DNA of 64,000 bases from a virus. The stretch spans positions 1 to 64,000 of IMG/VR virus record IMGVR_UViG_3300010885_030180, one strand, 5' to 3'. A program made the position numbers and the translations under genes. The notes under the pieces were generated by a model. That model saw only the letters and a program-made list of their open reading frames with translations, did not search any database and was not told where the DNA came from. Of the stretch, positions 9,711-28,763 are shown piece by piece (within the stretch, counting starts at the first letter, position 1; each line of letters starts with the position of its first letter).

Positions 9711-10971
9711 AGATATAACTGAATTTAAAAAAACTGTATGTGCAGTTCCATGGATGCATATTGCAGTAGAACCCAACGGCGATGCAATTCCGTGCTGCCT
9801 AACCAGTACACACAATTATATTGCTGGCAACTTAAACACACAATCCATTGAAGAAATATGGAATAGTGATAACATGAAATCATTACGCAAGGATATGATC
9901 AACGGTATTGAACCAAAGATATGTAACAAATGTTTTGATAGAGAAAAAGTCACCGGGGATAGTGGCAGGTATCATCACAATCGTAGATTCTCTCAAGTAC
10001 TTAACAATATACCTTATATTACAGAACCCAATGGAACTTGTAATACAATGGACCTTAAATATTGGGATTTTAGATTCAGTAATCTATGCAATTTTAAATG
10101 TCGTAGTTGTGGTCCTCGTTACAGTTCAACATGGGTACCTGATGCTACAAAACTCAATTGGATATCAGGACAAGAGAAAGTTTGGAATGTAGAAAGCGTA
10201 AACAATACAGATAAATTTGATTTCTTAAAAGAACAAATTGAAAATGTTGAAGAGATCTATTTTGCAGGTGGTGAACCTCTAATGATGTCCGAACATTGGA
10301 AAATTTTAGATATGTTACTTGAACGCAATAAAACGCACGTTAAATTATCATACAACACCAACGCTAGTATATTAACATATGGTGGCAAGAATGTATTAGA
10401 TTATTGGCGACAGTGGGATCACGGAAAACTTGAAGTATGGCCTAGCATTGATGAAATTGGCCCCCGTGCTGAATTAATTCGTAGTGGTACTGTATGGAAA
10501 AAAGTTGAAGAAAATTTAAAAGCAATGGCTTCATTAGATAATATTAATCTGCGTCCTGGGTTAACTATTGGAGCATGGAATGTATTCCGGCTTCCAGAGA
10601 TTATTAATCACTTAAATGATATTGGAGTAATCAAAGCTGATAGTAGAAATCGTACCGAATACAATAATACCAATTTTTTTATTAACCTATTGGTGGATCC
10701 TCACCATTACCATGTACGTATTTTGCCAGATGAATTTAAAAAAGAAACCGTTGCTAAGTTAAATGAATTCATTGCTGGTTATAACAAAAAATATAATTCA
10801 GATATAGGAATAAATCTAACTCACATACTTCATGAACTTACCACACCGTTTGATAGAAAATCTGCAAAACGATTTTTAGAAATTACCAGACAATTAGATC
10901 AAGTTAGAAATGAAAATACATATGAAGTTATCCCGGAGATGGAATGTGTAAGGAAAGCAATTGGTGAGTAA
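9694..10971 (+). CDS. radical SAM protein with N-terminal SPASM/twitch-like module
   Basis: A 425-residue protein. An N-terminal cysteine module (C16, C34-C35, C77, C80) has the spacing of SPASM or twitch auxiliary-cluster domains (PWMHIAVEPNGDAIPCC). The radical SAM core follows: C132, C136 and C139 in LCNFKCRSC for the 4Fe-4S cluster, and FAGGEPLM for SAM binding. The usual order is core first and SPASM last. The peptide or other substrate is unknown. A longer frame from ATG 9652 exists, but the ATG at 9694 begins the conserved sequence and gives a shorter overlap with the upstream gene. Confidence 0.85.
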   Translation: MTIEIKDITEFKKTVCAVPWMHIAVEPNGDAIPCCLTSTHNYIAGNLNTQSIEEIWNSDNMKSLRKDMINGIEPKICNKCFDREKVTGDSGRYHHNRRFSQVLNNIPYITEPNGTCNTMDLKYWDFRFSNLCNFKCRSCGPRYSSTWVPDATKLNWISGQEKVWNVESVNNTDKFDFLKEQIENVEEIYFAGGEPLMMSEHWKILDMLLERNKTHVKLSYNTNASILTYGGKNVLDYWRQWDHGKLEVWPSIDEIGPRAELIRSGTVWKKVEENLKAMASLDNINLRPGLTIGAWNVFRLPEIINHLNDIGVIKADSRNRTEYNNTNFFINLLVDPHHYHVRILPDEFKKETVAKLNEFIAGYNKKYNSDIGINLTHILHELTTPFDRKSAKRFLEITRQLDQVRNENTYEVIPEMECVRKAIGE

Positions 10972-11884
10972 TTCAAACTTATTGTTTCCTTGGATGGAAC
11001 AAACTGACATTTATGTAGATCAGATGCACAATTTATTTACTCAAATGCTAATTGGTATAGACATGTATTGTGGGGGTATTAACAATAAAATTGTTTTAGA
11101 AGTAGGAAGTGCATTCCATTTGTCCATGGGTGGTGTTTTACTAGCATTTGCTTCACAATCGGGAGCAAGTCGTGTATTTGGAATTGATTTAACATCACCA
11201 ACTATGTTAGATAATGATAAAAATAAAAAATTATTTTGGGAATCAGTTATTAATAAATTTAAAGTCCCTCTAAACAAGCACAATGATAAAATAACTGAAT
11301 TCCAAATGAACGTAGAAGAAATGTCATTTCCTAGCAATAGTATCGATTTAATATTTTCAAATGCAACATTTGAGCATATCAAAGACGTAAAAAAATCCCT
11401 TGATGAGTGTTATAGAGTACTTAAACCTGGTGGATGTTTATATATTCACTGGAATCCTTTTACATCTTTAGAAATGGGAGCACATGATATTGGTATTCCG
11501 TATTATTATCAATGGCCTCATCTTAGGTTATCATTTGAAGATCATCTAACTAAATTAGAAGAAGTCTTTAATAATCAGTCTTTGCTTGATTCTGCCAGCA
11601 TTCCAGGACACACAATTACCAAAGACCGTGCTGATAAAATACGATTAAATATTGATCAGTTTATGCGTGATACATTAAGTGATTTAAACAAAATTAGAGT
11701 TAGTGAGTTAATATCTCTTGTTAAAAATCTTAAATTTGATATATTATACGAAGAATATAGTACCTATTCTAATGTTGAAAAATTTTATACTGATCAAATT
11801 CAAAAAGAATTAAATTTTTATTCTAAAGACGAATTATTATTACATACACATAAAATAGCATTAAGGAAGATAATCGATGAATGA
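10961..11884 (+). CDS. class I SAM-dependent methyltransferase
   Basis: A 307-residue protein with methyltransferase motif I at about residues 44-60 (IVLEVGSAFHLSMGG), an acidic post-I position in RVFGIDLTSP, and motifs IV-VI around FSNATFEHIKDV and YRVLKPGGCLYIHW. This is the Methyltransf_11 type. The last 100 residues are a helical extension. The likely start is TTG 10961 or GTG 10964, both overlapping the upstream stop. It lies inside a run of radical SAM genes with overlaps on both sides, so it probably acts on the same substrate or pathway. Confidence 0.82.
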   Translation: MVSNSNLLFPWMEQTDIYVDQMHNLFTQMLIGIDMYCGGINNKIVLEVGSAFHLSMGGVLLAFASQSGASRVFGIDLTSPTMLDNDKNKKLFWESVINKFKVPLNKHNDKITEFQMNVEEMSFPSNSIDLIFSNATFEHIKDVKKSLDECYRVLKPGGCLYIHWNPFTSLEMGAHDIGIPYYYQWPHLRLSFEDHLTKLEEVFNNQSLLDSASIPGHTITKDRADKIRLNIDQFMRDTLSDLNKIRVSELISLVKNLKFDILYEEYSTYSNVEKFYTDQIQKELNFYSKDELLLHTHKIALRKIIDE

Positions 11885-13220
11885 TTTAATTAATATCAAT
11901 AAACTGAGAGATGAAATAGTCAACAGTGAGACATTTTGTTTTTACCCATTCCTTGAACTAAGTACTAACCCTTCAGGACATATTAAACCATGTTGTAATT
12001 ATAGAAGCACTATGAATGATGCTGATGGAAAAGTTATTAGTATATTAAATGGTTCAACATTTGATACAGCATGGAATAGTGATCCTATGGTTAATTTACG
12101 TAGGACGTTGACCACTGGAGAAATTCCCGAGCAATGCAATCGGTGCATACGAGACGGTGTTACTAGTTTAAGACATCGATCAGTTGATGAATATAAAAAT
12201 AACGGTGAAGTGTTAGAGCTTGTAAAGGCTACGATTGAGAATGATTACGTTGCAGATCATAATTTAAAAATATTGGAATTAAAACCTAGTACTCTTTGCA
12301 ACTTAAAATGTGTTGTCTGCAATAGTTATGATAGCTCTCAGATATCTAAAGAAATTAAAGCCCTAGCTGAAAAACATGGTGGAATAGAAATTGAAGCAGG
12401 CCGTGTTATACGATTGCGTCCTGATACTACTGGAATTATTGAAAAAAATAAAGCCTTTGAAAATATAGAAGATCCTGAGTGGTCTGACAATGAGGAAGTT
12501 TGGAAAAACTTTGAACGATTAGTTCCTTATTTGGAAATTATTAGTTTCGCCGGCGGTGAGCCTACGTTGATGCCGTTTGTTATAAAAGCATTGCAATATT
12601 GTGTAGATACAGGTTATTCTAAAAACATTCATGTATTTGTTTCAAGTAATTTTACCAATCTTAATAAAGAATTTTTTGAGTTAATGCCTAGCTACAAGAA
12701 ATTTGAATTGATTGCCAGCATTGACGGTTTTGAAAAAGTACAAGAGTATGCAAGATTTCCAAGCAAATGGAACATGGTATCTAAAAATTATATATTGGCA
12801 AAAGAGTACATGAAATTTGATAATGTAAAGATACTAATGAATATTACTGTCAACATTTTAAATATCATTAATCTTACCGATCTATTATACTGGATAGAAG
12901 ATAGAGCAAAAGAGTATCCGTACTTTAAACAATGGCCATATAATCTTAACTTGATAATACATCCTTATGAGCAGCAAATACATTTAATTACTGATCAAAA
13001 TAAACTGTTAGCAACATCAAGGCTTGAAGAATATTTAAAGAATAGTTCTATATTGAAAGAATTTCCAGGACTTGATTCAAAGATACATTTGTTAATATCG
13101 GAACTGAAGCGACCTAGAGATCCAATTTTGTTTGAAAAATTTAAACAATACTTGTCCATACTTGAAGAGCATAGGAAAAATAGTGTACGTGACTCTATTC
13201 CTGAGTTGGATTTAGAGTAA
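11877..13220 (+). CDS. radical SAM protein with N-terminal SPASM/twitch-like module
   Basis: A 447-residue protein with the same permuted layout as the gene at 9694: an N-terminal cysteine module at C21, C39-C40, C87 and C90 (FYPFLELSTNPSGHIKPCC), then the radical SAM motif C141/C145/C148 (LCNLKCVVC) and FAGGEPTLM. An inserted charged segment lies between the cluster motif and GGEP. The start overlaps the methyltransferase gene by eight bases, and the stop shares a base with the next gene. The substrate is unknown. Confidence 0.85.
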   Translation: MNDLININKLRDEIVNSETFCFYPFLELSTNPSGHIKPCCNYRSTMNDADGKVISILNGSTFDTAWNSDPMVNLRRTLTTGEIPEQCNRCIRDGVTSLRHRSVDEYKNNGEVLELVKATIENDYVADHNLKILELKPSTLCNLKCVVCNSYDSSQISKEIKALAEKHGGIEIEAGRVIRLRPDTTGIIEKNKAFENIEDPEWSDNEEVWKNFERLVPYLEIISFAGGEPTLMPFVIKALQYCVDTGYSKNIHVFVSSNFTNLNKEFFELMPSYKKFELIASIDGFEKVQEYARFPSKWNMVSKNYILAKEYMKFDNVKILMNITVNILNIINLTDLLYWIEDRAKEYPYFKQWPYNLNLIIHPYEQQIHLITDQNKLLATSRLEEYLKNSSILKEFPGLDSKIHLLISELKRPRDPILFEKFKQYLSILEEHRKNSVRDSIPELDLE

Positions 13221-14464
13221 TGTCTAACACATATTGCCCGTTGCCGTGGAATCACTTTTCCGCCGATGCTAATGGTACCATGCGTATGTGTTGTAATTCT
13301 ACAGCAGATGGAAGATTAAAAAATAACAACAATAATTTGATACAATTAAACAGTATTGAAAATGTTGTTGACTTCTATAACATTGATCATTTAAAAAGTA
13401 TTCGTAAAAGTATGATTGATAGTAAACGCATTAAAGAGTGTGATTACTGTTATGCAATTGAGGATAACGGCGGAACTAGTGTACGACAATGGTTTGCCAA
13501 ACAATGGCCGATGGAATCAGTTATAGAGAACACTAATCTATCTACCGGGGAAGTTAATAGTGTTGAAATTAATTATCTTGATTTAAGTTGGTCAAACAAA
13601 TGTAATTTGCAATGTAAAATGTGTACTCCAAATGCCAGCGATCAACTTATAAAAGAATTTAAATTTATAGATAACGAACAATGGTCTAATGCTATGGAGT
13701 TTAAAGACAGATGGAATTATAATAACATTAAACCTATACTAGATAAAACTATTACAGAAAATCTAAGTCAAATACTTGTTACCGGCGGCGAGCCATTAAT
13801 AAACAATGATTTCTATAATTTTTGTCAAATGCTTATTAGTACAGGAGTATCTAAACAGATTGAAATGTCTATACATACCAACTTAACGGTGACTCCACAA
13901 AAATGGTTTGATATATGGCAGCATTTTAAAAGTATGAGCATTAAAATTAGTATAGATGCTGTTGAAGAAGTTTACGAATATATTAGATATCCAGGTAAAT
14001 GGCATATAATAAAACAGAATATTAAAGACACTTTGGAATTTTCTAAAAATAATAATAATATTGGAATTGAATTTCATACAGTTTTATCAATTTTTAATAC
14101 AGAAAAATTTACAGACTTATTAGATTACCTTGCATCATTGGAAGGATATGCAGTATTAAAAGTTCCGCACATTAATTATATACATATCCCAGATTACGCA
14201 TCACCATCTAATTTGCCGACTGACTATAAGATAATAATTTATAAAAACATTATGGAATGGATTAAGATCAATATACCTAAATTTCTCAATGATGCAAGAT
14301 GTATGGAAAAAATCTCTACATTATATTCGGTTGCAAATATTCTATTACATTCACAAACAACTGATGAAGAAAAACATAAGAGTTATGTAATGATTAAGAA
14401 AATGGATGTGTATAGGAAACATGATACCTTAAAATTTCTACCGTGGATGGCAGATGCAAAATAA
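13220..14464 (+). CDS. radical SAM protein with N-terminal SPASM/twitch-like module
   Basis: A 414-residue protein with N-terminal C6, C24-C25, C74 and C77 (CPLPWNHFSADANGTMRMCC), then C128/C132/C135 (KCNLQCKMC) and VTGGEPLIN. The module order matches the neighbours at 9694 and 11877. The sequence is divergent enough from them to suggest separate substrates rather than recent duplicates. The ATG overlaps the upstream stop by one base and the gene runs 11 bases into the next one, so translation is coupled along the array. Confidence 0.85.
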   Translation: MSNTYCPLPWNHFSADANGTMRMCCNSTADGRLKNNNNNLIQLNSIENVVDFYNIDHLKSIRKSMIDSKRIKECDYCYAIEDNGGTSVRQWFAKQWPMESVIENTNLSTGEVNSVEINYLDLSWSNKCNLQCKMCTPNASDQLIKEFKFIDNEQWSNAMEFKDRWNYNNIKPILDKTITENLSQILVTGGEPLINNDFYNFCQMLISTGVSKQIEMSIHTNLTVTPQKWFDIWQHFKSMSIKISIDAVEEVYEYIRYPGKWHIIKQNIKDTLEFSKNNNNIGIEFHTVLSIFNTEKFTDLLDYLASLEGYAVLKVPHINYIHIPDYASPSNLPTDYKIIIYKNIMEWIKINIPKFLNDARCMEKISTLYSVANILLHSQTTDEEKHKSYVMIKKMDVYRKHDTLKFLPWMADAK

Positions 14465-15704
14465 ATTCAAAGATGTTTACGGAATGCCTGATCCGTCATG
14501 TGTGTATAAATTTGCATGGAGTACGATAAGGCTATCTCAACAGACTACTAATAGTTGTTATAGAGTACAACTGGAACCTATATCAGTTGATAACTTTGAT
14601 AACTTTCACAATACTCCTATAAAATTAAGTACACGGCAAGAGATGCTAGATGGCAATTGGCCGGGTAAAGGGTGTGAGTACTGTAGAGCTATTGAAAAAG
14701 TAGGCGGTATTAGTGACCGGATGCAGGCAAATTCTAATACTAAACCGCCACCTGAACTGTTAAAAAATAATCGTGCAACTAATGTTAACCCCACAATAGT
14801 TGAAGTGTATTTCAATAACTTATGCAACATGTCATGCATATATTGTAATGCAACTAATAGTACTACATGGGAAAACGAAAATCGTAAATTTAAGTTAGTA
14901 TCACAGGATGAACTTGATAGTTACGATAAACATAAACAAGAATATCCTGCTATTTTAGAAAAATATTGGCAATGGTTAGAGAAGAATGCATTATCATTGA
15001 ACGAATATTATATTCTAGGAGGAGAACCATTCTTTCAACCGGAATTTGAAAAAAATATAGAATTTTTTGAGAATCACCCTTGTCCTAACTTAGTAGTAAG
15101 TGTTTTTTCAAATCTTAAAGTAAAGAGTGAAAAATTTAAAAACATTTTAAACAAAGTACAAAGTTTAATTGACAATAAACATATCAAACGTTTTAGATTG
15201 TTATCCAGTATTGATTCATGGGGTCTTCAAGAAGAGTATGTTAGATACGGATTGGATCTTACCCAATGGGAAGAAAATTTTGAAATATTAGTAGAGCAGT
15301 ATCCTGATATAGAGCTTGTTGTAAAATCAACTCTATGCAATTTAAATATAAAAGCAACTGTAGACTTAATTAAAAAAATCAATGAATACAATACTTACAG
15401 AGTTAAAAACAATAACACCTTGATTGAAATTTCATGTACGCTGTTAAAAGATCCTAAGCACTTGCAAATTGATATTTTTCCTGATAAGTTTTTTGATAAC
15501 GACTTTGAACAAATAATTAAATTTGCTCCAACCAACTTTTTAAAAGAACAAATAAAAGGTTTTCAAACAATGATTAATGAGCATCCATATCAGCCGGCGT
15601 TAGTAGATCAACTTAAATTAGAATTAGATGCAATAGATAAACGTAGAAATTTAAATTGGAAATTAACATTTCCTTGGTTACAAGAATTTACAAATAATGT
15701 TTAA
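14454..15704 (+). CDS. radical SAM protein with degenerate N-terminal cysteine module
   Basis: A 416-residue protein, the last of the plus-strand array. The core motif is C124/C128/C131 (LCNMSCIYC) with ILGGEPFFQ. The N-terminal module keeps C16, C74 and C77, but the paired CC is reduced to a single C35 (NSCYRVQL), so its auxiliary cluster may be incomplete or differently ligated. The gene overlaps the upstream gene by 11 bases and converges with the minus-strand methyltransferase gene over four bases. The substrate is unknown. Confidence 0.83.
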   Translation: MQNKFKDVYGMPDPSCVYKFAWSTIRLSQQTTNSCYRVQLEPISVDNFDNFHNTPIKLSTRQEMLDGNWPGKGCEYCRAIEKVGGISDRMQANSNTKPPPELLKNNRATNVNPTIVEVYFNNLCNMSCIYCNATNSTTWENENRKFKLVSQDELDSYDKHKQEYPAILEKYWQWLEKNALSLNEYYILGGEPFFQPEFEKNIEFFENHPCPNLVVSVFSNLKVKSEKFKNILNKVQSLIDNKHIKRFRLLSSIDSWGLQEEYVRYGLDLTQWEENFEILVEQYPDIELVVKSTLCNLNIKATVDLIKKINEYNTYRVKNNNTLIEISCTLLKDPKHLQIDIFPDKFFDNDFEQIIKFAPTNFLKEQIKGFQTMINEHPYQPALVDQLKLELDAIDKRRNLNWKLTFPWLQEFTNNV

Positions 15705-16345
15705 CGATGTATTTTACCTATAAGCATGTATCTAGTGCCACGGCTATCATCTATTTCTTCCTCAACTAATACTTCAGAATTTTCCGGTAATTGATTTTTA
15801 AATTCTTCTAGTGAGTGTACACAATTAACATGACCTTCAATCCAATCCATATTGTTTGATTGGAATGCAAAATATGCATCGGCGTTTAATTCTGCCCAAA
15901 ACGGCCATTCTTTCATAGGCGGCATGTGCTCGCACGATGTATTGATAAACAATTTAGCATCTCGATGTCTTTCTTGATCTTCAGAAAATACATCACCCGT
16001 TGTAAAAAATACATTTTTGTAATTTAAAAACAATCCATATTTTGCAACCTTAATGGCCATCTCATCTAAATCGATGCCAGTTATTTTTTTCACTTTGTTT
16101 GATAATGCAGGTATAAGTATGCTTCCAAACCAACACCCAAATATAACTACCTCAGAGTCACTGTCTAAAATATCTAGCCGATCTATTCTATCTAGTAATT
16201 TTATCTTTGAAGCAAATTGATTATTACTGAAAGAATCAATAATATCTGCTCCTACATTGGGTCCTACCTCTTTGCTATTTTTTATTGCTCTTATTACTCG
16301 TTTAAATAAATCTAAATCTATAATATTATTTTTTAAATCAATCAT
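15701..16345 (-). CDS. SAM-dependent methyltransferase-like protein
   Basis: A 214-residue protein with a class I methyltransferase Rossmann pattern: SEVVIFGCWFGSILIPAL as motif I, KKITGIDLDEMAIKVAKYG as the post-I acidic strand, and a later LFINTSCEHMPPM region where motif IV is expected. The cysteine in the glycine loop is unusual. It is the last gene of the minus-strand operon, overlapping the carbamoyltransferase gene by eight bases, so it may add a methyl group to the same product. Confidence 0.75.
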   Translation of the reverse strand: MIDLKNNIIDLDLFKRVIRAIKNSKEVGPNVGADIIDSFSNNQFASKIKLLDRIDRLDILDSDSEVVIFGCWFGSILIPALSNKVKKITGIDLDEMAIKVAKYGLFLNYKNVFFTTGDVFSEDQERHRDAKLFINTSCEHMPPMKEWPFWAELNADAYFAFQSNNMDWIEGHVNCVHSLEEFKNQLPENSEVLVEEEIDDSRGTRYMLIGKIHR

Positions 16346-17858
16346 GTTTCTTCCTGATAATATAATCGTTAATCACTAGTATGTCTAGTCCGCATTTTTT
16401 AAATGTCTTTACAGCATCTTCTGGAGTCTCTACAATAGGTTCCTGGCAATTGAAACTAGTATTCAGAAGCATGGGAATTCCAGTAAGTTTATAAAACTCA
16501 CTTATTAAATTGTAGTAACGTTCGTTAAACTCTTTGTTGACAGTTTGTATTCTTGCAGTACCATCTACGTGTGTCACACCCGGAATCTTATCTGAAATCA
16601 CAGGCACGATACGTGACATATACGGACTAGTTTGATTTGTATCAAAGTACTCTTGATAATGTTCTTCAAGCACACTTGGAGCGAACGGTCTGAAGTCTTC
16701 TCGCAATTTAATCTTTGAGTTGATGATATTCTTAATGTTCGGGTTTCGTGGATCAGCTAGGATACTTCTATTACCTAATGCCCTGTTACCACTTTCGCTT
16801 TTACCTTGATACCATCCAACTATTTTACCATTGGCAATAGTATGTGCAACTTCTGTATAAACAGTATCCATTGATACTTGTTTGTGTTCTAATCCGTTAA
16901 AGATAGAAGCATTTACTACATGTTCTTTTCCTGAATATACACTAGGTATATGAATATTTTTATTTAAAACATAATCGGCATGCATATAAGCACCCAGTGA
17001 TTGACCTTCGTCGCCAGCTGCCGGCGGCACATGGACATTTACGTAATGCTTAGTTAGTTCTTCGTTCATATATCCGTTATACGCAACCCCACCAGCAACA
17101 CAAATATTATCCGAAGTCTTAAGAGGACATACAAATTGTTTAATTAGACTAATTGTAACATGCTGTAAAGTGAATGCTATATCTTCTTTCGGAACATATT
17201 TTAAAAGCTCTTCTGCACTATCGGGTAATCGGTGATTAGGATTTTGCAAATACTGCTCAATCATTAAATGTATTTCGTTATTATATTTTCCAAAACCTAC
17301 TAATCCCATTGTCTTGCCAGCACCTAGATATCCAAAGCCGATGTCTTGAGATAATCTGTTCCACAGTCCACCAATTGCTATCTTGTCAGACAAGTTAGTA
17401 ATCTTACCATGCTTATCAACAAATATACAATTGAATTGCCATCCTCTGCCGTCAATTGCTAATATATCAGATTCAGCAAAGCCCGAACTTAGAAAAGCGT
17501 ATGTAGCATGACTCTGATGATGATCTATATAGTAATAGCTACTAGTATGTAATCTATCCCATAGGTTAGTCGGATTGAATGATAAGAACTCTGTATTTGG
17601 TAAAGTCCCTTGCAGCAGATCTAATACAAACTCCTGTCCTAGATTAGAAACAGTAAAGACAAATACGTTATCCTTACTGGCGTTTTCGTAGTTGGGCAAA
17701 AAATTTTCAAAGAAGAACTCTCTACTATATTTAGGATCGTGTGAGTTCTCTCGATTGAGATTATGCTTTCTTCTAGTGTATCTTTCTACCTGATTATGAA
17801 ATTCACCATCGTAAGTATTGTGATCATGAATGTTTACTGCCACTGCAAAAATTTTCAT
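16338..17858 (-). CDS. carbamoyltransferase, NodU/CmcH family
   Basis: A 506-residue protein with the two-domain plan of O-carbamoyltransferases such as NodU, CmcH and TobZ. The N-terminal Kae1-like domain has YYIDHHQSHATYAFLSSGF (metal-binding His residues), DILAIDGRGW and GYLGAGKTMGLVGFG. The C-terminal YrdC-like domain has GWYQGKSESGNRALGNRSIL and LREDFRPFAPSVLEEH. The family moves a carbamoyl group from carbamoyl phosphate, through an adenylate, to a sugar or antibiotic hydroxyl. It overlaps the radical SAM gene upstream by four bases. The acceptor is unknown. Confidence 0.9.
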   Translation of the reverse strand: MKIFAVAVNIHDHNTYDGEFHNQVERYTRRKHNLNRENSHDPKYSREFFFENFLPNYENASKDNVFVFTVSNLGQEFVLDLLQGTLPNTEFLSFNPTNLWDRLHTSSYYYIDHHQSHATYAFLSSGFAESDILAIDGRGWQFNCIFVDKHGKITNLSDKIAIGGLWNRLSQDIGFGYLGAGKTMGLVGFGKYNNEIHLMIEQYLQNPNHRLPDSAEELLKYVPKEDIAFTLQHVTISLIKQFVCPLKTSDNICVAGGVAYNGYMNEELTKHYVNVHVPPAAGDEGQSLGAYMHADYVLNKNIHIPSVYSGKEHVVNASIFNGLEHKQVSMDTVYTEVAHTIANGKIVGWYQGKSESGNRALGNRSILADPRNPNIKNIINSKIKLREDFRPFAPSVLEEHYQEYFDTNQTSPYMSRIVPVISDKIPGVTHVDGTARIQTVNKEFNERYYNLISEFYKLTGIPMLLNTSFNCQEPIVETPEDAVKTFKKCGLDILVINDYIIRKKHD

Positions 17859-18682
17859 CGTGAATATTTTTCTTCTTCAATAATTTCGAGTATTTCTATT
17901 CTTCTAAATTCTGGTCTAGGAGGAATAATATCGTAGCAGGTTTCACAATATTTTTCAAATTCAAATAACTTAAAATTCATCATCTTATCTATATTTTCTT
18001 TTGTAACATCAAATTGTCTTGAGCCATTGATAACTTTTCTACTGCAATGACGTATCTTTTGTATTTCAAAATCAAACACAGGAACTAGCGGAAACTTTGC
18101 ACAGATCCTTCTCTCTATTTCAGGCGCTTTTTCTTTAAACTCAAATGTAGGAGATCTAGAATTGTATTCTTTGAACTCAGTATTCTTATGTTCTAGTATT
18201 GATAAATCATATTTCTCTTTGTACTTAAAATAGTTAGGAGTCTGTATAATTAGATTATAGTTGTTTTTATCATTTTCCGCAAGGAAATCAAAGTTACCTA
18301 GCTTTTCAATCCTATCTTCGTAGAAGTCGAGCACTAAATGTTCAATATATATTATATCTGGATCCTCTAATACCCATGGATAGAATTTTCTTACTAAAGA
18401 GTTTGATAACACTTGTACAATAAGATTTGGATGTTTTTTAATCTCATCAATTACTTCTTTGAGATTTTTGATAAGACCGGGCTCTCCGCCTAACAAGCAT
18501 ATCCTAGTTTTGTAAGGACTTAAATATTCTAAGGTTCTTCTTAAAAAATCCATGTCTACAGTTAAGTACCGCATTTCGAGAGTCCATGCTGTGCAGTAAT
18601 GACAATTCTTATTACATGACTTTGTCAAATAAAAATCAACTGTTAAATAGTTTGAATTTTTTAAATTTTCTAAAGTTATCAT
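17855..18682 (-). CDS. radical SAM protein
   Basis: A 275-residue protein. C23/C27/C30 (SCNKNCHYC) binds the SAM cluster and CLLGGEPGLI is the GGEP motif. A pair of cysteines near the C-terminus (YCETCYD), with C194 and C213 further upstream, could hold a twitch-type auxiliary cluster. It starts nine bases after the stand-alone SPASM gene and overlaps the carbamoyltransferase gene by four bases. The operon context suggests that its product is a precursor for carbamoylation, but this is inference. Confidence 0.83.
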   Translation of the reverse strand: MITLENLKNSNYLTVDFYLTKSCNKNCHYCTAWTLEMRYLTVDMDFLRRTLEYLSPYKTRICLLGGEPGLIKNLKEVIDEIKKHPNLIVQVLSNSLVRKFYPWVLEDPDIIYIEHLVLDFYEDRIEKLGNFDFLAENDKNNYNLIIQTPNYFKYKEKYDLSILEHKNTEFKEYNSRSPTFEFKEKAPEIERRICAKFPLVPVFDFEIQKIRHCSRKVINGSRQFDVTKENIDKMMNFKLFEFEKYCETCYDIIPPRPEFRRIEILEIIEEEKYSR

Positions 18683-18691
18683 ATATTTTTA

Positions 18692-19045
18692 TTAAACATA
18701 ATTTTTTACGCCGTCTATTGTACCATCATCTAAATTAATCCATATATCTTTTCGAATTATATTATTTTTGTCTTCTCTCACGCGGCATACCTCTATACAG
18801 GCAGGAGCTCCTTTATGATTTCTTAAGTTCTCTTCAAAATCTATCCATTCTTTTTTAGATAAAATTTCATCTATTGTTTCGTAATCTTCAATCTTACTTA
18901 CGGCTAACAGCTTCTTAAATTCAATATCTTCCAACGTTGAAGGATGGTCGCAATAACAACACGGCAATAGATAACCAGTATTTGTTATTGCCATCATATG
19001 CGTTCCTCTAAAACAAATTGGATCTAATTTTATTTCTTTTGTCAT
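18692..19045 (-). CDS. stand-alone SPASM-like cysteine protein
   Basis: A 117-residue protein with no radical SAM core. C12 (DPICFRGTH), C29-C30 and C32 (GYLLPCCYC), and C82/C86 (PACIEVC) reproduce the SPASM-type spacing seen fused in other enzymes here. Its ATG overlaps the stop of the radical SAM core gene (19042-19045), so the pair is translationally coupled and probably forms one two-chain enzyme. A matching protein is encoded at 22963-23286. A Fe-S auxiliary subunit is inferred. Confidence 0.7.
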   Translation of the reverse strand: MTKEIKLDPICFRGTHMMAITNTGYLLPCCYCDHPSTLEDIEFKKLLAVSKIEDYETIDEILSKKEWIDFEENLRNHKGAPACIEVCRVREDKNNIIRKDIWINLDDGTIDGVKNYV

Positions 19046-19683
19046 TTTAAAAATGTTACCATTTTATATTCTGGTTTAGTTGGCATTAACCAATCATCAT
19101 TGCCATCCCATCTAGAACTTTGCACAAGATAAAGATTAACACCAGCATTTTTTGCCAATGCAATTGCAGAATCAATACTATTTTCATTATAGCTGAAAAT
19201 GATGTATTGCCATACTGGTTTAATAATTAAATATTTTTTTGATTCCACCATGATATCAAATAGTTTTAATCCGTCCTGATTAATTCTGTAAGTTTTACTT
19301 TCTTCTGGAAGACCGTCAATAGAAAAACGCCATGTTGCATTTGGGTTGGCTTTAAATGCTTTTATATACCACTCTTTAGATTTTGCCGATGAGGCGTTTT
19401 GCACCCATGTTGGACTGTTAGATTCATAGCAAATTTTTAAAAGTTCTATAAACGATCGATGATGCACTGGATCAGAATACGTACCCTCAAAATTAATGCC
19501 ACCTCTAAAAAATTTAATTAGTTTTTTAAAATTTTCTATACTAATGTCACTACCGTGTATTGGCAATCCTTTATTTTTAAAGTGAACTTGCCTCATACAA
19601 CGAGGACATTCCAGCGGGCATCGATTAGACAAATCTATGTTAACTCCTCGCATCCCGCTAAAAAAACTATTGTTATTTTCCAT
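19042..19683 (-). CDS. radical SAM core protein without fused SPASM domain
   Basis: A 213-residue protein with C22/C26/C29 (RCPLECPRC) at the N-terminus. In place of GGEP it has NFEGTYSDPVHH. At about 210 residues it is a minimal partial-barrel core. It is a clear paralogue of the protein at 22281-22970: both have CPLxCPxC, SDPV, a W-x-F-x-x-D-G-x motif and an aligned R-x-x-W ending. Its partner SPASM protein follows with an ATGA overlap. The substrate is unknown. Confidence 0.8.
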   Translation of the reverse strand: MENNNSFFSGMRGVNIDLSNRCPLECPRCMRQVHFKNKGLPIHGSDISIENFKKLIKFFRGGINFEGTYSDPVHHRSFIELLKICYESNSPTWVQNASSAKSKEWYIKAFKANPNATWRFSIDGLPEESKTYRINQDGLKLFDIMVESKKYLIIKPVWQYIIFSYNENSIDSAIALAKNAGVNLYLVQSSRWDGNDDWLMPTKPEYKMVTFLK

Positions 19684-19695
19684 TTATTAATGCCG

Positions 19696-20376
19696 TTACC
19701 GTACAAAGTTAACAATTCTTTCATAATTTGGTCTAAGATCGTGCGGACGTGGTCTTGTAGTATATTCCAGTCCCTTACCCACCGTCATGGTCATAATAGG
19801 TTTTCTAGTTATAAACGGAAGTTCTGTCAATTTTGATAGATCTTTAGGAAAACATCCAATAACTGATACATCAAGACTGTTTTCCAAACACATTCCACCA
19901 AACGCATCAGCAAATAATCCCACTTCAAATGCACTTGTTGGAGTTAGGTAATCTAATGTAGATTCATCAAGTGCTTCAAATTTGTGTCCTCTTGAAACTT
20001 GCCATTGTATCATTTCAGTAGGCTGTGTTTCTAATCTCATTGTAAAAATTAGCAAATAAGAACAACTAAGCATATTACTGTAAGCTGGCAAATAGGTGCT
20101 ATACCTTTCCGCAATAATATTGTTAATATCAATATTGTCACCGTGGGCCTCATTACCAAGACACGCTAGATAGGCCGCTTCTTTATATTTTTGATTATCC
20201 GGTCCTTGTCCTATTACATGAACAGTAAATGCCATGAAATTATTTTTAGATGGTGTAACTTCCCATGTTTTACGTAATAAAGAATCAATTAACGATTCTG
20301 GTATATCAACTGTACTGTCATATTTTAGTACAAATCTTCTATTTTTTAAAGTATCATATATCATAATTTTCTCCAA
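19696..20376 (-). CDS. nitroreductase-family flavoprotein
   Basis: A 226-residue protein with the FMN-binding start of the nitroreductase fold (DTLKNRRFVLKYDS, then TPSKNNFMAFTVHVIG), a central helical region, and a C-terminal FGGMCLENSLDVSVIGCFP segment that matches the second FMN loop of the family. It likely catalyses an NAD(P)H-dependent reduction or a flavin-dependent oxidation of a pathway intermediate. The start overlaps the aminotransferase gene by 23 bases; ATG at 20364 is an alternative. Confidence 0.78.
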   Translation of the reverse strand: MEKIMIYDTLKNRRFVLKYDSTVDIPESLIDSLLRKTWEVTPSKNNFMAFTVHVIGQGPDNQKYKEAAYLACLGNEAHGDNIDINNIIAERYSTYLPAYSNMLSCSYLLIFTMRLETQPTEMIQWQVSRGHKFEALDESTLDYLTPTSAFEVGLFADAFGGMCLENSLDVSVIGCFPKDLSKLTELPFITRKPIMTMTVGKGLEYTTRPRPHDLRPNYERIVNFVR

Positions 20377-21433
20377 TTATATTAATAACAGTACTTATCT
20401 CTTTAGAAGTTAGCCAAGCATGTATAGGCAACGATAGAATTGTATCAGCAACTATCTTAGAGTTAACACAATTATCTTTTCTGTGTACAATAGCATTATA
20501 CATTGAGTTTTCCGACAACGGAAGTTCGTAATGTATAGAGGCACGCAACATCATTTTTAGGCAGTTTCTAGTATCGTTGTCTGCAACTCGTATTGTATAC
20601 TTGTGGAAGTTGTGATTCATTTCTTGTGAAGCTGATTGAACATACACTGGTAAATCTTTAAATGCGTTGTTGTATTGACCGGCAATTTTTTGACGCTTTG
20701 CTTGTGTTTTTTCCATATTTTGCAACCGCAGATTAATAATTTCTGCATTGAGCACATACATTCTAGAATTGTAACCAAGTAGTTCAAAGTCGGTGCCTTT
20801 GCCATGTCGTCTTATCTTTTTAAACAGCGTTGCCTGTTCTGGGTTGTCGGTTAAAAATACACCACCACCATTAATACCAGCAATGACTTTGTTACTGTTA
20901 AAACTATAAACACTACAATCACCAATAGTACCTGCTTTTATTCCATTAAGGCTTGAGCCAATACTCTGTGCTGCATCTTCAATGAACACAATTCCTTTTT
21001 CTTGACAAAACTTTTGTATTGCAGAGGTATCTGTCATATTTCCAAATAGATGAACATAAACAATAGCTTTGGTCTTTTCGCTATACATACGTTTAATACT
21101 ATCTAAGCTCATGTGATAGGAGTCTAAATTAATATCACAAAACACTGGAGTCGCCCCTGCGAGGCTAATACATGCCGCAGACGAAATCCACGAAAAGTCT
21201 GTTACTAGTACTTCGTCTCCAGTTCCGATTCCATAAGTTAACAATGCAAAATGTAAAGCATCAGTTGCATTTGCTACTGAGACCGCATATTTTCTTCCAA
21301 CTCGTTTTGCAAAATTACGCTCAAATTCATCATTATTTTCGTAATTAAGTTGCGACATAAATTGATCAAATAACGTTAGGTATGCTTCTTTATTTTCGTG
21401 ATACTCTCTATCCCATCCATCATATGATATCAT
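20354..21433 (-). CDS. DegT/DnrJ/EryC1-family PLP aminotransferase
   Basis: A 359-residue protein with the complete family pattern: ANATDALHFAL (54-64) for phosphate binding, EDAAQSIGSS (152-161) with D153 for the PLP ring, and SFNSNKVIAGINGGGV with K182 as the Schiff-base lysine. Members usually aminate a nucleotide-linked keto-sugar. It overlaps the neighbours on both sides (four bases with the 21430-22284 gene, 23 with the nitroreductase). Together with the carbamoyltransferase it points to an amino-sugar or similar small product. Confidence 0.9.
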   Translation of the reverse strand: MISYDGWDREYHENKEAYLTLFDQFMSQLNYENNDEFERNFAKRVGRKYAVSVANATDALHFALLTYGIGTGDEVLVTDFSWISSAACISLAGATPVFCDINLDSYHMSLDSIKRMYSEKTKAIVYVHLFGNMTDTSAIQKFCQEKGIVFIEDAAQSIGSSLNGIKAGTIGDCSVYSFNSNKVIAGINGGGVFLTDNPEQATLFKKIRRHGKGTDFELLGYNSRMYVLNAEIINLRLQNMEKTQAKRQKIAGQYNNAFKDLPVYVQSASQEMNHNFHKYTIRVADNDTRNCLKMMLRASIHYELPLSENSMYNAIVHRKDNCVNSKIVADTILSLPIHAWLTSKEISTVINIIGENYDI

Positions 21434-22284
21434 TTAAGTTTCTCCATTGCATTTAATATTGGCGATATATTTGGTTCTTTAATTGAACGTTTCCAGTATA
21501 CACTACCGCCGTCGTGTATTTTTGTATCTCTAAGATAAATTATTTCTTTGTTAAAATATCTACACTCTTGAAAAATTCTCGGAGCAGGATCAAATGTCTC
21601 TTTGGTATATACATACGTTTCAAAAATACCCATTAGATTTTCTACAGGTGCAAATACATTGTTATTGTTTATGTTAACATAGTTTTCGTTATAGGTCAAT
21701 ATACCGTGATTGGGATAATCGTGGATAACTTTTTCTATTGATGCATAATATTTGTCGTTTGTTCCTAAAAATAAATGTTTAAACTGTATACTATCCGTAT
21801 GTGGTTTGTAAATGCTAAAGTTGATAGTTTTTTCAAAATGTTCGCCTACTCCATTTGTATACACTTCAGTATCACATAAATCCACAATTTGCGTTGGGGC
21901 ATAAAACTCAACAGCCGACGGATATGTTGTAAGATGATTCTCAGAGTAAGTTGCAATAACTTTACCTCCAAATAAACGGCACAACGAATCTTGTTGTTCT
22001 TGACTATAATATTTAAAATCTTGCCATGACAATGTTATCATGCTTCTTCCCATAACCAACGTAACGTCCTTGTTATCTGGTAATATGTTATTAAATTCTA
22101 TATGTTGGCAATGGATATATTTTTTCAAAATCGCATTGATATAGTCTTCTTGTGAAAATTTTCTATGACAAATGATAACAACTTTGGAATCTATACCTAA
22201 TGAATTTAGATATGAGCAGTATTCGTAACTATAATAAAGTAAGCCATCAACTGGCTTACTTGTGACCACAATGTTAATCGTCAT
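21430..22284 (-). CDS. possible GT-B glycosyltransferase-like protein
   Basis: A 284-residue protein. The N-terminus has a Rossmann-like pattern (TINIVVTSKPVDGLLYYSYE) with an SLGIDSKVVIICH strand. Near the C-terminus TFDPAPRIFQECRYFNKEI resembles the nucleotide-sugar loop of GT4-type enzymes, with E in the usual place. The overall length is short and the similarity is weak. It overlaps the genes on both sides by four bases. If it is a glycosyltransferase, it could attach the amino sugar suggested by the next gene. Confidence 0.45.
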   Translation of the reverse strand: MTINIVVTSKPVDGLLYYSYEYCSYLNSLGIDSKVVIICHRKFSQEDYINAILKKYIHCQHIEFNNILPDNKDVTLVMGRSMITLSWQDFKYYSQEQQDSLCRLFGGKVIATYSENHLTTYPSAVEFYAPTQIVDLCDTEVYTNGVGEHFEKTINFSIYKPHTDSIQFKHLFLGTNDKYYASIEKVIHDYPNHGILTYNENYVNINNNNVFAPVENLMGIFETYVYTKETFDPAPRIFQECRYFNKEIIYLRDTKIHDGGSVYWKRSIKEPNISPILNAMEKLK

Positions 22285-22970
22285 TTATCTTCAACTGTAA
22301 TAATTTCTTTGTTTTTTTCCGGTTGCCATTCGGTAGGAACTTTTACATTCCCGCCAGTTCTGTTACTTTTAATAAAGTTTAACATTATGCCGTGTTTATT
22401 AGCAAACTCTTTTGCTTCTTCTATCTGATGTAGATTGTGCTCAAACACAATGTAATGCCATTCAATTTTTAATCCTAGTGATCTTCCTAACACCATAGCA
22501 TCAAACAGTAGCGCACTATTTTGACCAACTCGATATATCATACTAATATCTTTCATACCGTCTAGCCCAAATGCCCATGTGACGTTTGTATGAGACAACT
22601 CAAACGCTTTCCTATACCATTCTATATTCTTCTGACTTGCAGCAGTCATAATTCTAACATTCTTATTCGGATAAGTTTTAGAGAATGCTAAAAAAGCAAA
22701 CAAGTCTGGCCAAAATACTGGATCAGAAAGTTGTCCACAAAGCATAACCCCAGACTCAAAGAATATTAACAGTTTTTCTGCATCTCTTAACGGAAGATCA
22801 AATCCGTTATCAATTCTTATTTTAATTTCTTTATACTTATTAGAATCTTTAGGAGCCTGAAGTTTAGCTCTAGTGCATTGTGGACATTGAAGTGGGCATC
22901 GTGTTGATGTTTCAATGTTAGGCATTCCGTACAACTGTTGTGCTTTAACAAATTCTAAATGATCATTCAT
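22281..22970 (-). CDS. radical SAM core protein without fused SPASM domain
   Basis: A 229-residue paralogue of the 19042-19683 protein, with C25/C29/C32 (RCPLQCPQC), MLCGQLSDPVFW instead of GGEP, and WAFGLDGMKD. No auxiliary cysteines are present apart from scattered ones. It overlaps the upstream stand-alone SPASM gene by eight bases. Unlike the other pair, the SPASM gene comes first here. The two genes probably encode one enzyme in two chains. Confidence 0.8.
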   Translation of the reverse strand: MNDHLEFVKAQQLYGMPNIETSTRCPLQCPQCTRAKLQAPKDSNKYKEIKIRIDNGFDLPLRDAEKLLIFFESGVMLCGQLSDPVFWPDLFAFLAFSKTYPNKNVRIMTAASQKNIEWYRKAFELSHTNVTWAFGLDGMKDISMIYRVGQNSALLFDAMVLGRSLGLKIEWHYIVFEHNLHQIEEAKEFANKHGIMLNFIKSNRTGGNVKVPTEWQPEKNKEIITVEDK

Positions 22971-23286
22971 TATTCACACCGCACTTTTCGCGACAGCACC
23001 TTGGAGCATTCTCTGGAAAATGCATTATAATATCAACAAAGTTTTTCCATGTAGTTGAAGATATAATATCAACTACTGAGTTGTTATTTAAGAGTGCGAG
23101 ACTCTCGCTGTAGAAACCCGACTCTACAAAGTCTTTTCTAGTCGATGGAGCATCACACCAACAACAAGGCAGTAAATATCCATCTGCTGTATATGCTATA
23201 CCTTGTTTTACTTGATTAGTACGTACTTGTTTGCCTGTTTCATCATAATAATGTGGCATGCATTCGGGTTTAATGTAAATTAACAT
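22963..23286 (-). CDS. stand-alone SPASM-like cysteine protein
   Basis: A 107-residue protein with C9 (KPECMPHYY), C41-C42 and C44 (GYLLPCCWCDAPS) and C97/C98/C102 (RCCREKCG), closely matching the 18692-19045 protein. It is the first gene of the long minus-strand operon. An ATAAATA motif on the minus strand (23297-23303) lies ten bases before its ATG and may be the operon promoter. The protein is likely an Fe-S auxiliary subunit for the next gene's radical SAM core. Confidence 0.7.
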   Translation of the reverse strand: MLIYIKPECMPHYYDETGKQVRTNQVKQGIAYTADGYLLPCCWCDAPSTRKDFVESGFYSESLALLNNNSVVDIISSTTWKNFVDIIMHFPENAPRCCREKCGVNNE

Positions 23287-23296
23287 ATATTATTAA

Positions 23297-26080: not shown

Positions 26081-26085
26081 ATTGA

Positions 26086-26124: not shown

Positions 26125-26709
26125 ATGGTTAATCAAGATTATCTTAAATTTTTTGCAATTGGTGATATATACGAACTAAAACATTCTATAGACATTCCGA
26201 GCGTTATTGAATATTGTAAAAATGTAGAATTTAAAGATCGTGACAAAGGAATACATTCATTAAGTTTAACGTCAATTGACGGTACTATGGAAACTACAGT
26301 AGACGGCGGCCTTAGATATATCGACGGATTAAAAGATGACGGTATTAGAGTACCAACAATTCATTATCATAATTTAAAACAGCACATTTCTTTGTTAAAA
26401 GATTTTGAGTCTGTAATTTGTAGAACAAGAATTTTTAAGGCATTACCAAGAGGAGTATGGGACCCTCACCGTGATGGCTCTAGTACAATTCGTATCATTG
26501 TTCCATTATTAAACAGCAATTGGAAAAATTTTAGATTGATGTATGAAGATCGTGTATTAAATCTGCAAGAAGGTAAAGCGTATGTAGTTAATACTCTTAA
26601 AGATCATGCGGCTGTTGCATTTTCTAATGAGATGTATATTATGGTCATGACTATACTACCCAGTGATGAATCTGCAAATATATTAACTAAGTTACTAGAA
26701 ATTAAATGA
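26125..26709 (+). CDS. aspartyl/asparaginyl hydroxylase-like 2OG oxygenase
   Basis: A 194-residue protein with H115-R-D117 (WDPHRDGSS), R123 (IRIIVPL) and H161 (KDHAAVAF). The HxD-x5-R arrangement is that of aspartyl/asparaginyl beta-hydroxylases (PF05118), in which an Arg just after the HxD strand binds 2OG. The N-terminal 90 residues are less conserved. The substrate may be a protein side chain or a small molecule. It leads a plus-strand operon and overlaps the next gene by four bases. Confidence 0.68.
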   Translation: MVNQDYLKFFAIGDIYELKHSIDIPSVIEYCKNVEFKDRDKGIHSLSLTSIDGTMETTVDGGLRYIDGLKDDGIRVPTIHYHNLKQHISLLKDFESVICRTRIFKALPRGVWDPHRDGSSTIRIIVPLLNSNWKNFRLMYEDRVLNLQEGKAYVVNTLKDHAAVAFSNEMYIMVMTILPSDESANILTKLLEIK

Positions 26710-27323
26710 TGAAAATTATAGTCACTGGTCTTCCTCGAACCAGAACTAGTATTATTTCTAAAAAGATTGGACAACAATTTAATTTAGAGAGTCCTAGTAA
26801 TAAGTGGAGTGAAACCCATAAGTATAATGAATCTCGCGATAATTGGTTAACTCGCGATAATTGTATTTTTAAATTATGGGGAATACACAGTGACGATTAT
26901 ATTAATACATTAGAACAGTATCCGGGTAATATAATAGTGTCTTACACTACCGATTTACCTATGTTTGTTGCAAAGTTAGCACGGTCGTGTATAACAAATG
27001 AATGGGGAATAATTATCCGAGATAAAGATACTATATCATTTAAGGATAATATAAAACAATTTGAAGAATTAATTCCGATAGTTAATACATTTAAAGACTC
27101 GCTAGATAAACTATTGTCTAGTGAAAAAATATTATTAAAATCGGCTTTTGTTAATAGTGACAAAGTTGGAATTCATATTCAATCTACATTTGATGCATCA
27201 GTAGCAGAATACCTACGAGGTCTTGTTTGCGATTATACACCGCCGATTATTACAGATTACATTAACGAAGATCCAGCAGAATTTTATGAATACATATATA
27301 ACACATTTGGACGTACATTTTAA
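26706..27323 (+). CDS. P-loop sulfotransferase-like protein
   Basis: A 205-residue protein that starts with MKIIVTGLPRTRTSIISKKI, the 5'-phosphosulfate-binding loop pattern of sulfotransferases (GxPRTRTS in place of a strict Walker A). A conserved second strand near IIVSYTTDLPMF and helices follow. The length is short for a sulfotransferase (about 250-300). PAPS supply could come from the APS kinase-like gene at 31206, but no sulfurylase is seen. The overlaps on both sides tie it to the oxygenase operon. A different P-loop kinase function is possible. Confidence 0.5.
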   Translation: MMKIIVTGLPRTRTSIISKKIGQQFNLESPSNKWSETHKYNESRDNWLTRDNCIFKLWGIHSDDYINTLEQYPGNIIVSYTTDLPMFVAKLARSCITNEWGIIIRDKDTISFKDNIKQFEELIPIVNTFKDSLDKLLSSEKILLKSAFVNSDKVGIHIQSTFDASVAEYLRGLVCDYTPPIITDYINEDPAEFYEYIYNTFGRTF

Positions 27324-27909
27324 TATAGATGATTTAAATTATATAAAGACAACAATTTTAGAATTCCACAATTCTAATAGAAATAATTTTTTATCTAAAT
27401 ATAATACTGGTAATACATTACATAAGCCATCATTAGGGTATTATGTTCCGTTATTTAAATCAACACATACTGATCGTGATGTAACATCGTGGGTAGAATT
27501 TAATTCAATACCAGATGACACAGTACAAATTGATACTATTAAAATGAATATATCGGATAATCTGCATCAAAATCTATATATAATTAATCCAAAATCTTCT
27601 TTTAATAATATTTTCTATGACAAGTTAACTCGTATACTAGATAGTATTCCTGTAGATTTTCAAAAAGAATCCACTACGGCATCTGTACAAGAGTTTGGTT
27701 ACAGTATGAAATTTCATACAGATGCTGGCGTAAAATCAAGAATACATATTAATTTAAATAAAGATAGTTTAGATTATTTTTATACATCAGATGGTTGTTA
27801 CAGAATGGAATATGCAAAATGCTATCTATTTGAAGCAAGTAAAACAAGGCACGGGTTTATGTCGTTTCAGACAGAGCCGCGTGTACATTTAATAATGGAT
27901 ATAATATGA
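27286..27909 (+). CDS. aspartyl/asparaginyl hydroxylase-like 2OG oxygenase
   Basis: A 207-residue protein from ATG 27286; an upstream start at 27223 would add 21 unlikely residues inside the preceding gene. H144-T-D146 (KFHTDAGV), R152 (SRIHINL), H189 (TRHGFMSF) and R199 (PRVHLIMD) give a complete 2OG oxygenase set with the PF05118-like Arg. The N-terminal half is unrecognised. It overlaps its neighbours by 38 bases upstream and four bases downstream. The substrate is unknown. Confidence 0.68.
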   Translation: MNTYITHLDVHFNIDDLNYIKTTILEFHNSNRNNFLSKYNTGNTLHKPSLGYYVPLFKSTHTDRDVTSWVEFNSIPDDTVQIDTIKMNISDNLHQNLYIINPKSSFNNIFYDKLTRILDSIPVDFQKESTTASVQEFGYSMKFHTDAGVKSRIHINLNKDSLDYFYTSDGCYRMEYAKCYLFEASKTRHGFMSFQTEPRVHLIMDII

Positions 27910-28751
27910 TAACATTAGGAAAAGAAAAAGCGGTATATTCATTATTACTGCCCGAAGTAAAAGCAATATTAGAAAACGATAACGTTTCTAATTTTTATGT
28001 ACATACAGCAGATAAAGATCGTTTAGACAAATTTCGACAGGACACTGTTACTAATTTTAGAGAATGGGTAAAAGATATTGTTGACCTGGGCGAATTTACC
28101 CATGCATATCCTATTAACGGAGTCACCGGTGCAATCGAACAGTGGTTGTTAAGTAATCCAGGAAATGTTCAGCAACTACCTGGAGAATATGGATGGCTAC
28201 AAATACAGAGACCGTGGGTCAACGATAATCGTCCTGTTAATACGGCATACGTCAGTAATCCATTTAGTGCAACAGGATGTTTTCATCAACGCTACGTAGA
28301 CATAAAATTACCCACATTATTAGACTGTGCATTTGTTGGCAGTACGATGAAACATCGAATAGAATTATCTTCCAGTATTAGTGCAGTAGCATTTAGTTTC
28401 AGTAAAGGGTTTAGTGTTAATTTATTTCGAACAGGATTTCTATTCAGCAAAGAACCTATTCCTGCATTTGAAGTGTGGTTGGGGTATAATTATTATAATT
28501 ATTTAAGTATGCATGTTGCACGTACAATTATAGATAATTTTCCAGTTGATTATATATACAATAAATTTCGTGCAACACAATTAGAGATATGCGAAGAAAA
28601 TAATTTAATTCCTAGTGATTGTGTTTTTTTAGCAACTTCCACTGATAGCAAATACAATCATTATAAAAGAGGCGATGGCACTAATAGACTTTGTTTATCT
28701 AGAGAATATGAAAAAAGAGGTATTGGTACGTTTAGTGCATCAATATTATGA
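27906..28751 (+). CDS. divergent fold-type I PLP aminotransferase-like protein
   Basis: A 281-residue protein. The signature blocks of class I/II aminotransferases appear in order: NGVTGAIEQW (71-80) for the cofactor-phosphate region, SNPFSATG (117-124) for the NPxxPTG loop, LLDCAFVG with D140 for the pyridine nitrogen, and SFSKGFSVNLFRTG with K167 as the PLP lysine and R175 after it. The protein is about 100 residues shorter than usual, mainly at the N-terminus and in the small domain, so activity is uncertain. The ATG overlaps the upstream gene by four bases. Confidence 0.6.
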   Translation: MITLGKEKAVYSLLLPEVKAILENDNVSNFYVHTADKDRLDKFRQDTVTNFREWVKDIVDLGEFTHAYPINGVTGAIEQWLLSNPGNVQQLPGEYGWLQIQRPWVNDNRPVNTAYVSNPFSATGCFHQRYVDIKLPTLLDCAFVGSTMKHRIELSSSISAVAFSFSKGFSVNLFRTGFLFSKEPIPAFEVWLGYNYYNYLSMHVARTIIDNFPVDYIYNKFRATQLEICEENNLIPSDCVFLATSTDSKYNHYKRGDGTNRLCLSREYEKRGIGTFSASIL

Positions 28752-28763
28752 TCAAACAGTATA

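Follow-up and report, generated by a model that had tools for sequence, protein, structure and literature searches.

The closest described counterpart of the genes examined here is the host recognition cluster (HRC) of pelagimyophages, including that of the cultured Pelagibacter phage Mosig EXVC030M (genes 82–94), which lies between the tail-fibre and the VrlC/baseplate genes, in a region whose radical SAM cassettes vary among relatives (PMC7029224). Such cassettes were recorded in the pelagimyophage "host recognition cluster" in 2020 without a function; the glycosyltransferases of the cluster were proposed to modify the O-chain, its radical SAM and carbamoyltransferase genes were given no proposed function, and freshwater fonsimyophages were described as being without radical SAM genes (PMC7029224). 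The T4-like cyanophages P-SSM2 and S-SSM7 possess a Nol-like carbamoyltransferase and LPS-type gene clusters (PMC3037559), and a phage-encoded carbamoyltransferase of the same superfamily, acting on 5-hydroxymethylcytosine, came from MetaGPA (eLife 2021). A comparable combination of enzymes is known from the butirosin and spectinomycin pathways, with a twitch-fold radical SAM enzyme (BtrN or SpeY) and a BtrR/S-type DegT aminotransferase, and from the tobramycin pathway, with the O-carbamoyltransferase TobZ.

Here we examined a 64-kb window, that is, the whole stretch of DNA under analysis, which is part of an IMG/VR virus record of 103,605 bp. Between positions 15701 and 23286, the minus strand of the window carries ten ORFs, labelled A to J in transcription order, with a coding share of 99.7%; seven of the nine junctions overlap (by 4, 4, 4, 4, 8, 8 and 23 nt), and the remaining two leave gaps of 12 and 9 nt. 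A ten-gene minus-strand operon of this extent had been proposed in an earlier reading made from the letters and their ORFs (hereafter the sequence-only reading), and both the operon and the family labels of its genes were confirmed, the methyltransferase label being weak, with matches below cut-offs. The arrangement is far beyond chance, since the order of the core genes repeats in scans anchored on different genes.

On the other hand, the statement of the sequence-only reading that no phage system with this set had been described has to be withdrawn, as the same cluster is present in Mosig and radical SAM cassettes had been noted in 2020 (PMC7029224). The Mosig core spans genes 83–90, between the tail-fibre and VrlC genes, with C (gene 83), F/G (84–85), D (87), H (88), I (89) and J (90) in equal order and orientation; the window phage differs in having two split radical SAM/SPASM pairs and a block of full-length radical SAM genes. 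The phage-borne biosynthetic system is real and conserved, its genomic setting was already known, and its function was never assigned. As in a pelagimyophage-type HRC, to judge by gene content, glycan enzymes are found in a variable region, with tail-fibre genes from about 36 kb, and long tail-fibre-like genes extend over 36–80 kb of the record. The ribonucleotide reductase of the record is most closely related to its counterparts in Xanthomonas phage X1 and in Stenotrophomonas phages, and from this affinity the window phage probably belongs to a lineage other than the pelagimyophages. The virus infects aquatic bacteria, and dozens of further viruses from aquatic sources share its operon core in the same gene order.

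Five of the ten genes, encoding a GT-B glycosyltransferase (C), a DegT aminotransferase (D), a twitch radical SAM enzyme (H), a NodU-type carbamoyltransferase (I) and a methyltransferase (J), form the conserved core. Scans of IMG/VR returned 242, 274 and 254 matching stretches with I, C and H as anchors, respectively, and the co-occurrence fractions given here were drawn from the best 80 matches of each scan. Among these best matches, C-D-H-I-J was the commonest core string, in 29 of the 50 non-redundant I-anchored loci and in 29 of the 37 that had 9 kb or more of upstream sequence or a complete core; the C-anchored loci contained D in 54/58, H in 50/58 and I in 52/58, and the H-anchored loci contained I in 66/67. 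In the majority of exceptions to the core order, the contig end was reached or the core lay partly on the opposite strand. The distances of the core proteins co-vary (r 0.39–0.84, each pair above the maximum of 300 permutations), and dN/dS values, rough as dS is near saturation, range from 0.04 to 0.34 with the lowest in H, I, C and D. The core is under purifying selection, and its catalytic residues are intact. The biosynthetic cluster anticipated by the sequence-only reading is thereby upheld, its core being neither lost nor scrambled in relatives; as a ten-gene unit, it stands for the five core genes, while the other five (two radical SAM/SPASM pairs and the nitroreductase) proved exchangeable.

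No match to C (21430..22284, minus strand; 284 aa) was found by sequence search, including the PDB. Its AlphaFold2 model (pLDDT 94.7) showed the two Rossmann domains of a GT-B fold, with PimA as the top Foldseek match (E 3.8e-5) and T4 alpha-glucosyltransferase among the further matches; viral glycosyltransferases were matched as well. The acidic D232-x7-E240, invariant in the homologue columns, may be equivalent to the catalytic D/E-x7-E motif of GT-B enzymes. The next core gene, D (20354..21433, minus strand), belongs to the DegT/DnrJ/EryC1 PLP sugar aminotransferases (PF01041, 6.8e-85, over the Pfam cut-off) and matched many solved sugar aminotransferases. Its predicted PLP lysine K182, which aligns with SFYPTK of 7b0d, was invariant in 40 of 40 homologues, as the sequence-only reading required.

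H (17855..18682, minus strand; 275 aa) is a radical SAM protein with a C-terminal 4-Cys twitch domain and the only one within the ten-gene operon with a Radical_SAM Pfam match over cut-off (PF04055, 3.9e-9). The CxxxCxxC motif (C23/27/30) and the twitch cysteines C194, C213, C246 and C249 were invariant in 40 sequences, a set that fits a fully ligated twitch as in BtrN (PMC9012708, PMC6231123). In the H model (pLDDT 87.8), the top folds were the aminocyclitol dehydrogenases SpeY (3.6e-4) and BtrN (4e-4). The fold matches were modest overall (TM about 0.4–0.5): dehydrogenases of the SpeY/BtrN type ranked 1–3 and 5 at TM of about 0.4–0.45, with SuiB, EpeE, DesII and AbmM behind, and the peptide-modifying SuiB and EpeE scored almost as high. 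For twitch/SPASM enzymes, a warning against inferring function from similarity has been given (PMC6231123).

I (16338..17858, minus strand; 506 aa) matched PF16861 (5e-68) and PF02543 (4e-16), both over cut-off, and has a Kae1-like metal site (HxxxH, D, D) and a YrdC-like C-terminal domain, as expected for the NodU/TobZ type; its closest solved relatives in the PDB are GdmN, NovN and TobZ. The motifs DHHQSHA, AIDG, GDEGQ and RPFAPSVL are kept in 46 homologues, so that the metal-site residues, the other point on which the sequence-only reading depended, are likewise intact. Judged by profiles and motifs, D as a DegT aminotransferase and I as a NodU/TobZ carbamoyltransferase are unambiguous. Non-sugar substrates also occur for both DegT enzymes and NodU-type carbamoyltransferases.

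One such substrate would be DNA, with I making 5-carbamoyloxymethylcytosine or a relative of it in the phage genome. A phage carbamoyltransferase of the same family makes 5-carbamoyloxymethylcytosine (eLife 2021 e70021, PMC8670742), and the T4 alpha-glucosyltransferase match of C would suit such a role. However, at the three positions by which the cytosine-modifying enzymes stand apart (TobZ W408, G421 and R423), I has W, G and R, kept in 46 homologues (aligned by spacing). In the published 5hmC enzyme, these positions are occupied by I, C and T, so its specificity residues are missing from I. Nor was the linkage to thymidylate synthase found: a gene of the thymidylate-synthase/dCMP-hydroxymethylase family was missing in 23 of 25 records, many of them fragments and that of Mosig complete. 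Moreover, carbamoyltransferases beside glycosyltransferases came from unmodified contigs in that study (eLife 2021 e70021). The W/G/R residues and the missing thymidylate-synthase family genes both disfavour I as a 5hmC carbamoyltransferase, and we consider DNA hypermodification highly improbable.

J (15701..16345, minus strand; 214 aa) would be a class I-like SAM methyltransferase. Its matches to PrmA, MTS and Methyltransf profiles are below the curated cut-offs, a G.W.Gs...iD.D pattern is conserved in its homologues, and it is the weakest assignment of the ten genes.

The remaining five genes are exchangeable cassettes outside the core. A (22963..23286, minus strand; 107 aa) is a stand-alone SPASM-type Fe-S protein (PF13186, E 0.0055, below cut-off) whose C/PCCW/C...C pattern is kept in 23 homologues, and its partner B (22281..22970, minus strand; 229 aa) is a short radical SAM core without a SPASM domain of its own (PHROG 21308 "radical SAM", 1e-4), with CxxxCxxC kept in 21 homologues. 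The second pair consists of F (19042..19683, minus strand; 213 aa), another short radical SAM core (PHROG 21308, 1.6e-13) with CxxxCxxC kept in homologues, and the SPASM-type G (18692..19045, minus strand; 117 aa; PF13186, 9.9e-6, over cut-off). A Pfam search gave no match for B or F. Among the loci listed, at least 29 adjacent A-B pairs, every one overlapping, and at least 15 adjacent F-G pairs were found, and the SPASM protein and its radical SAM partner never formed a single ORF. The constant pairing of a stand-alone SPASM protein with a truncated radical SAM core is a separate enzymology question. Between the pairs lies E (19696..20376, minus strand), a variable nitroreductase-fold flavoprotein by its family profile against PDB nitroreductases (best 1.4e-7), starting at TTG or at an ATG four codons downstream; relatives have 0–3 nitroreductase copies, including a second family that matches PF00881.

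L052 and L066/L067 contain all ten families, arranged as C-A-B-D-E-F-G-H-I-J. Relatives differ in the interval between C and H, which may contain A/B pairs, F/G pairs, full-length radical SAM genes and 1–3 nitroreductases, as well as QueC-like, GDSL-like and APH-like kinase genes; GT-like proteins (assigned by eye) are also among the accessory families of relatives. In some relatives D and H are absent jointly (L060/L061 and L062; L109, L159 and L163 in the C-anchored scan, some being the same contigs), which fits a pair of ketone-maker and aminotransferase. The C family is also found fused to an A-type SPASM domain (L162), to a full radical SAM protein (L161), and to a radical SAM protein with a hydroxylase-like tail (L167), the hydroxylase having been assigned by eye as Pfam gave none. 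These fusions tie the accessory enzymes to the glycosyltransferase.

Downstream of the operon, a convergent block on the plus strand (9652..15704) contains four full-length SPASM/twitch radical SAM genes (starting at 9652, 11877, 13220 and 14454) and a methyltransferase (10961), as identified by Pfam and PHROG. It probably belongs to the same system; relatives of these radical SAM genes sit within the core cluster of other phages, and the fusions in L161, L162 and L167, those of L161 and L167 involving this radical SAM type, tie the four genes to the glycosyltransferase by extension. On the other side, two unassigned plus-strand genes (23347–24586) and a minus-strand gene of a B12-type radical SAM protein (24548–26101; PF04055, 1.3e-15) are likely to be associated with the operon. 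Radical SAM enzymes are packed here more densely than is usual for a virus. Further modification genes follow at 26125..31994, where Pfam detected Asp/Arg-hydroxylase-like genes (27223, 29293), a GNAT gene (28764), a fatty-acid desaturase-like gene (30505) and an APS-kinase/nucleotidyltransferase-like gene (31206). The hydroxylase-like neighbours may hint at protein or lipid A targets, which counts against the glycan-tailoring reading given below.

Perhaps a polypeptide is modified rather than a sugar, either the huge tail fibres next door or a RiPP-like peptide. The radical SAM/SPASM pairs, the Asp/Arg hydroxylases and the nitroreductases would then introduce post-translational modifications, with the glycosyltransferase, DegT, carbamoyltransferase and methyltransferase enzymes decorating the same chain. 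SPASM enzymes commonly target peptides, SuiB and EpeE are among the fold matches of H, giant tail genes adjoin the cluster, and the glycosyltransferase–radical SAM–hydroxylase-like triple fusion of L167 would also be at home there. Yet the closest solved relatives of D, H and I act in sugar, aminocyclitol and antibiotic tailoring, and an operon that is 99.7% coding leaves no space for a precursor peptide, so a classical RiPP cluster was rejected; the search for a precursor gene, confined to the operon, found no free ORF. Modification of a polypeptide is, in our view, unlikely.

The core looks confined to phages. Among 50,697 phage records, C was found in Mosig only, and H over most of its length again in Mosig only; the cyanophages have no C, just a partial H (28% coverage) and a carbamoyltransferase only about 30–37% identical to I. 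No bacterial home of the H family was found in the GTDB genomes, which yielded two MAG contigs only: one (L090) has flanking genes that resemble the Mosig VrlC region and the other (L091) has phage-cluster genes only. As both are phage-like by their neighbours, a cellular origin of the H family was discarded.

We read the operon as a pathway for glycan tailoring that the phage carries in its host-recognition region, with a probability of roughly 55%. Starting from a sugar supplied by the host, H would oxidise one hydroxyl to a ketone, which D would aminate; I would then place a carbamoyl group from carbamoyl phosphate and ATP on a hydroxyl, J would add a methyl group, and C would attach the finished sugar to an acceptor at a surface, which may be the tail fibres of the phage itself or the LPS of the host. 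The A/B and F/G pairs, E, the neighbouring full-length radical SAM enzymes and the hydroxylases would serve as interchangeable cassettes, through which the product would differ from phage to phage. Oxidation, amination, carbamoylation, methylation and transfer would be the simplest sequence of steps in which each of the five core enzymes has a part, its sugar logic being taken from the folds; we likewise infer the substrates, the step order, the choice of acceptor and the benefit, whether host recognition, evasion of defence or exclusion of rival phages. Of the carbamoylated, methylated amino-sugar or peptide product suggested by the sequence-only reading, a carbamoylated amino sugar seems the best reading.

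The sugar is probably of host origin, since neither a sugar nucleotidylyltransferase (PF00483) nor a DOI/DHQ synthase (PF01761) was present in any of 10 records searched, including the complete Mosig; complete synthesis of a nucleotide sugar or aminocyclitol by the phage was rejected for want of these enzymes. An SDR epimerase/NDP-sugar dehydratase (PF01370) was detected in 3 of the 10, the window contig not among them. The same absences bear on a diffusible aminoglycoside-like small molecule acting against rival phages or cells. Its enzyme logic would resemble aminocyclitol antibiotic tailoring, with a SpeY/BtrN-type radical SAM enzyme, a DegT aminotransferase and a TobZ-type carbamoyltransferase, but the phage operon has no DOI synthase or sugar nucleotidylyltransferase, no exporter or resistance gene was noticed, and the operon sits among tail genes, which makes such a product quite improbable. 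Set beside the aminocyclitol pathways, the operon also differs in the weak sequence similarity of H and in its additional GT-B enzyme, and we assign it to no aminoglycoside or RiPP pathway.

Within the glycan-tailoring reading, and with unchanged sugar chemistry, the acceptor could be the host surface (LPS or lipid A) and not the virion, the purpose being superinfection exclusion. The fatty-acid desaturase-like gene in the neighbourhood and PF05118, whose members include lipid A hydroxylases, would point the same way. A host-surface role was put forward for the glycosyltransferases that pelagimyophages have in this region (PMC7029224), but the clusters adjoin tail genes, and we regard the host surface as a possible but doubtful acceptor. 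Equally tentative is the full picture of a widespread, natural-product-like and phage-only pathway, in which a five-enzyme core makes a carbamoylated amino sugar. Swappable cassettes, among them radical SAM enzymes in two parts with the SPASM domain as a protein of its own, would diversify this sugar combinatorially and so give each phage a chemically distinct surface, on the tail fibre or the host envelope. If true, abundant aquatic phages would possess a route to an unusual sugar that is exclusive to phages. The operon also offers a way to test concretely which product the large, as yet unexplained "host recognition" islands of T4-like phages from aquatic habitats give rise to. As Mosig and Pelagibacter ubique HTCC1062 are a cultured phage–host pair with the core, the product can be sought directly.

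A late-promoter candidate, NATAAATA, precedes the operon and some tail genes; on the contig it was found 10 times in sense and 4 times in antisense orientation at 36 gene starts, and across 31 relatives the counts were 10 sense and 9 antisense.

Eight radical SAM genes were identified within 16.5 kb of the window (9652-26101), an unusual density for a virus. This set comprises the short cores B and F and the twitch type H of the ten-gene operon A-J, four full-length SPASM/twitch types, and one gene at 24548-26101. GC content is 31-33% in the modification region (window 8001-32000), whereas it reaches 36-42% in the tail-gene region, and this difference is consistent with separate acquisition. 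Late-promoter-like NATAAATA octamers were located immediately 5′ of the operon and of neighbouring genes (window 23287-23346, 32003-32010 and 35689-35696); no enrichment of the octamer was detected across relatives.

The GT-B glycosyltransferase C and the carbamoyltransferase I are also found in C-A-B or C-A clusters (L060/L061 and L062), A being a stand-alone SPASM-type gene. Since both the DegT gene D and H are missing from these clusters and a QueC-like PP-loop gene is present, a separate substrate branch is suggested. Carbamoyltransferases with 71-72% identity to I occur in a different neighbourhood in L022, L023, L024 and L026, where they adjoin a B12-type radical SAM gene and the core C-D-H-I-J is absent. 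Family C was further detected fused to a radical SAM domain (L161:883-3108), to a SPASM domain (L162:5327-6538), and to radical SAM plus a hydroxylase-like domain assigned by eye (L167:8100-11018), the last probably matching BFVD entry A0A1B1IX00 (974 aa).

Tail-fibre-like giant proteins (2173, 3193, 1947 and 1650 aa) adjoin the modification genes (window 42174-61793 and L087:4774-15580). The region is flanked by GT9-like glycosyltransferases, recognized by eye, and a 1352-aa protein containing glycosyltransferase and methyltransferase stretches (window 3036-4940 and L087:15628-19686). A phage-borne predicted metal-dependent hydrolase (PF10118, E 1.1e-52) lies at window 1185-2114.
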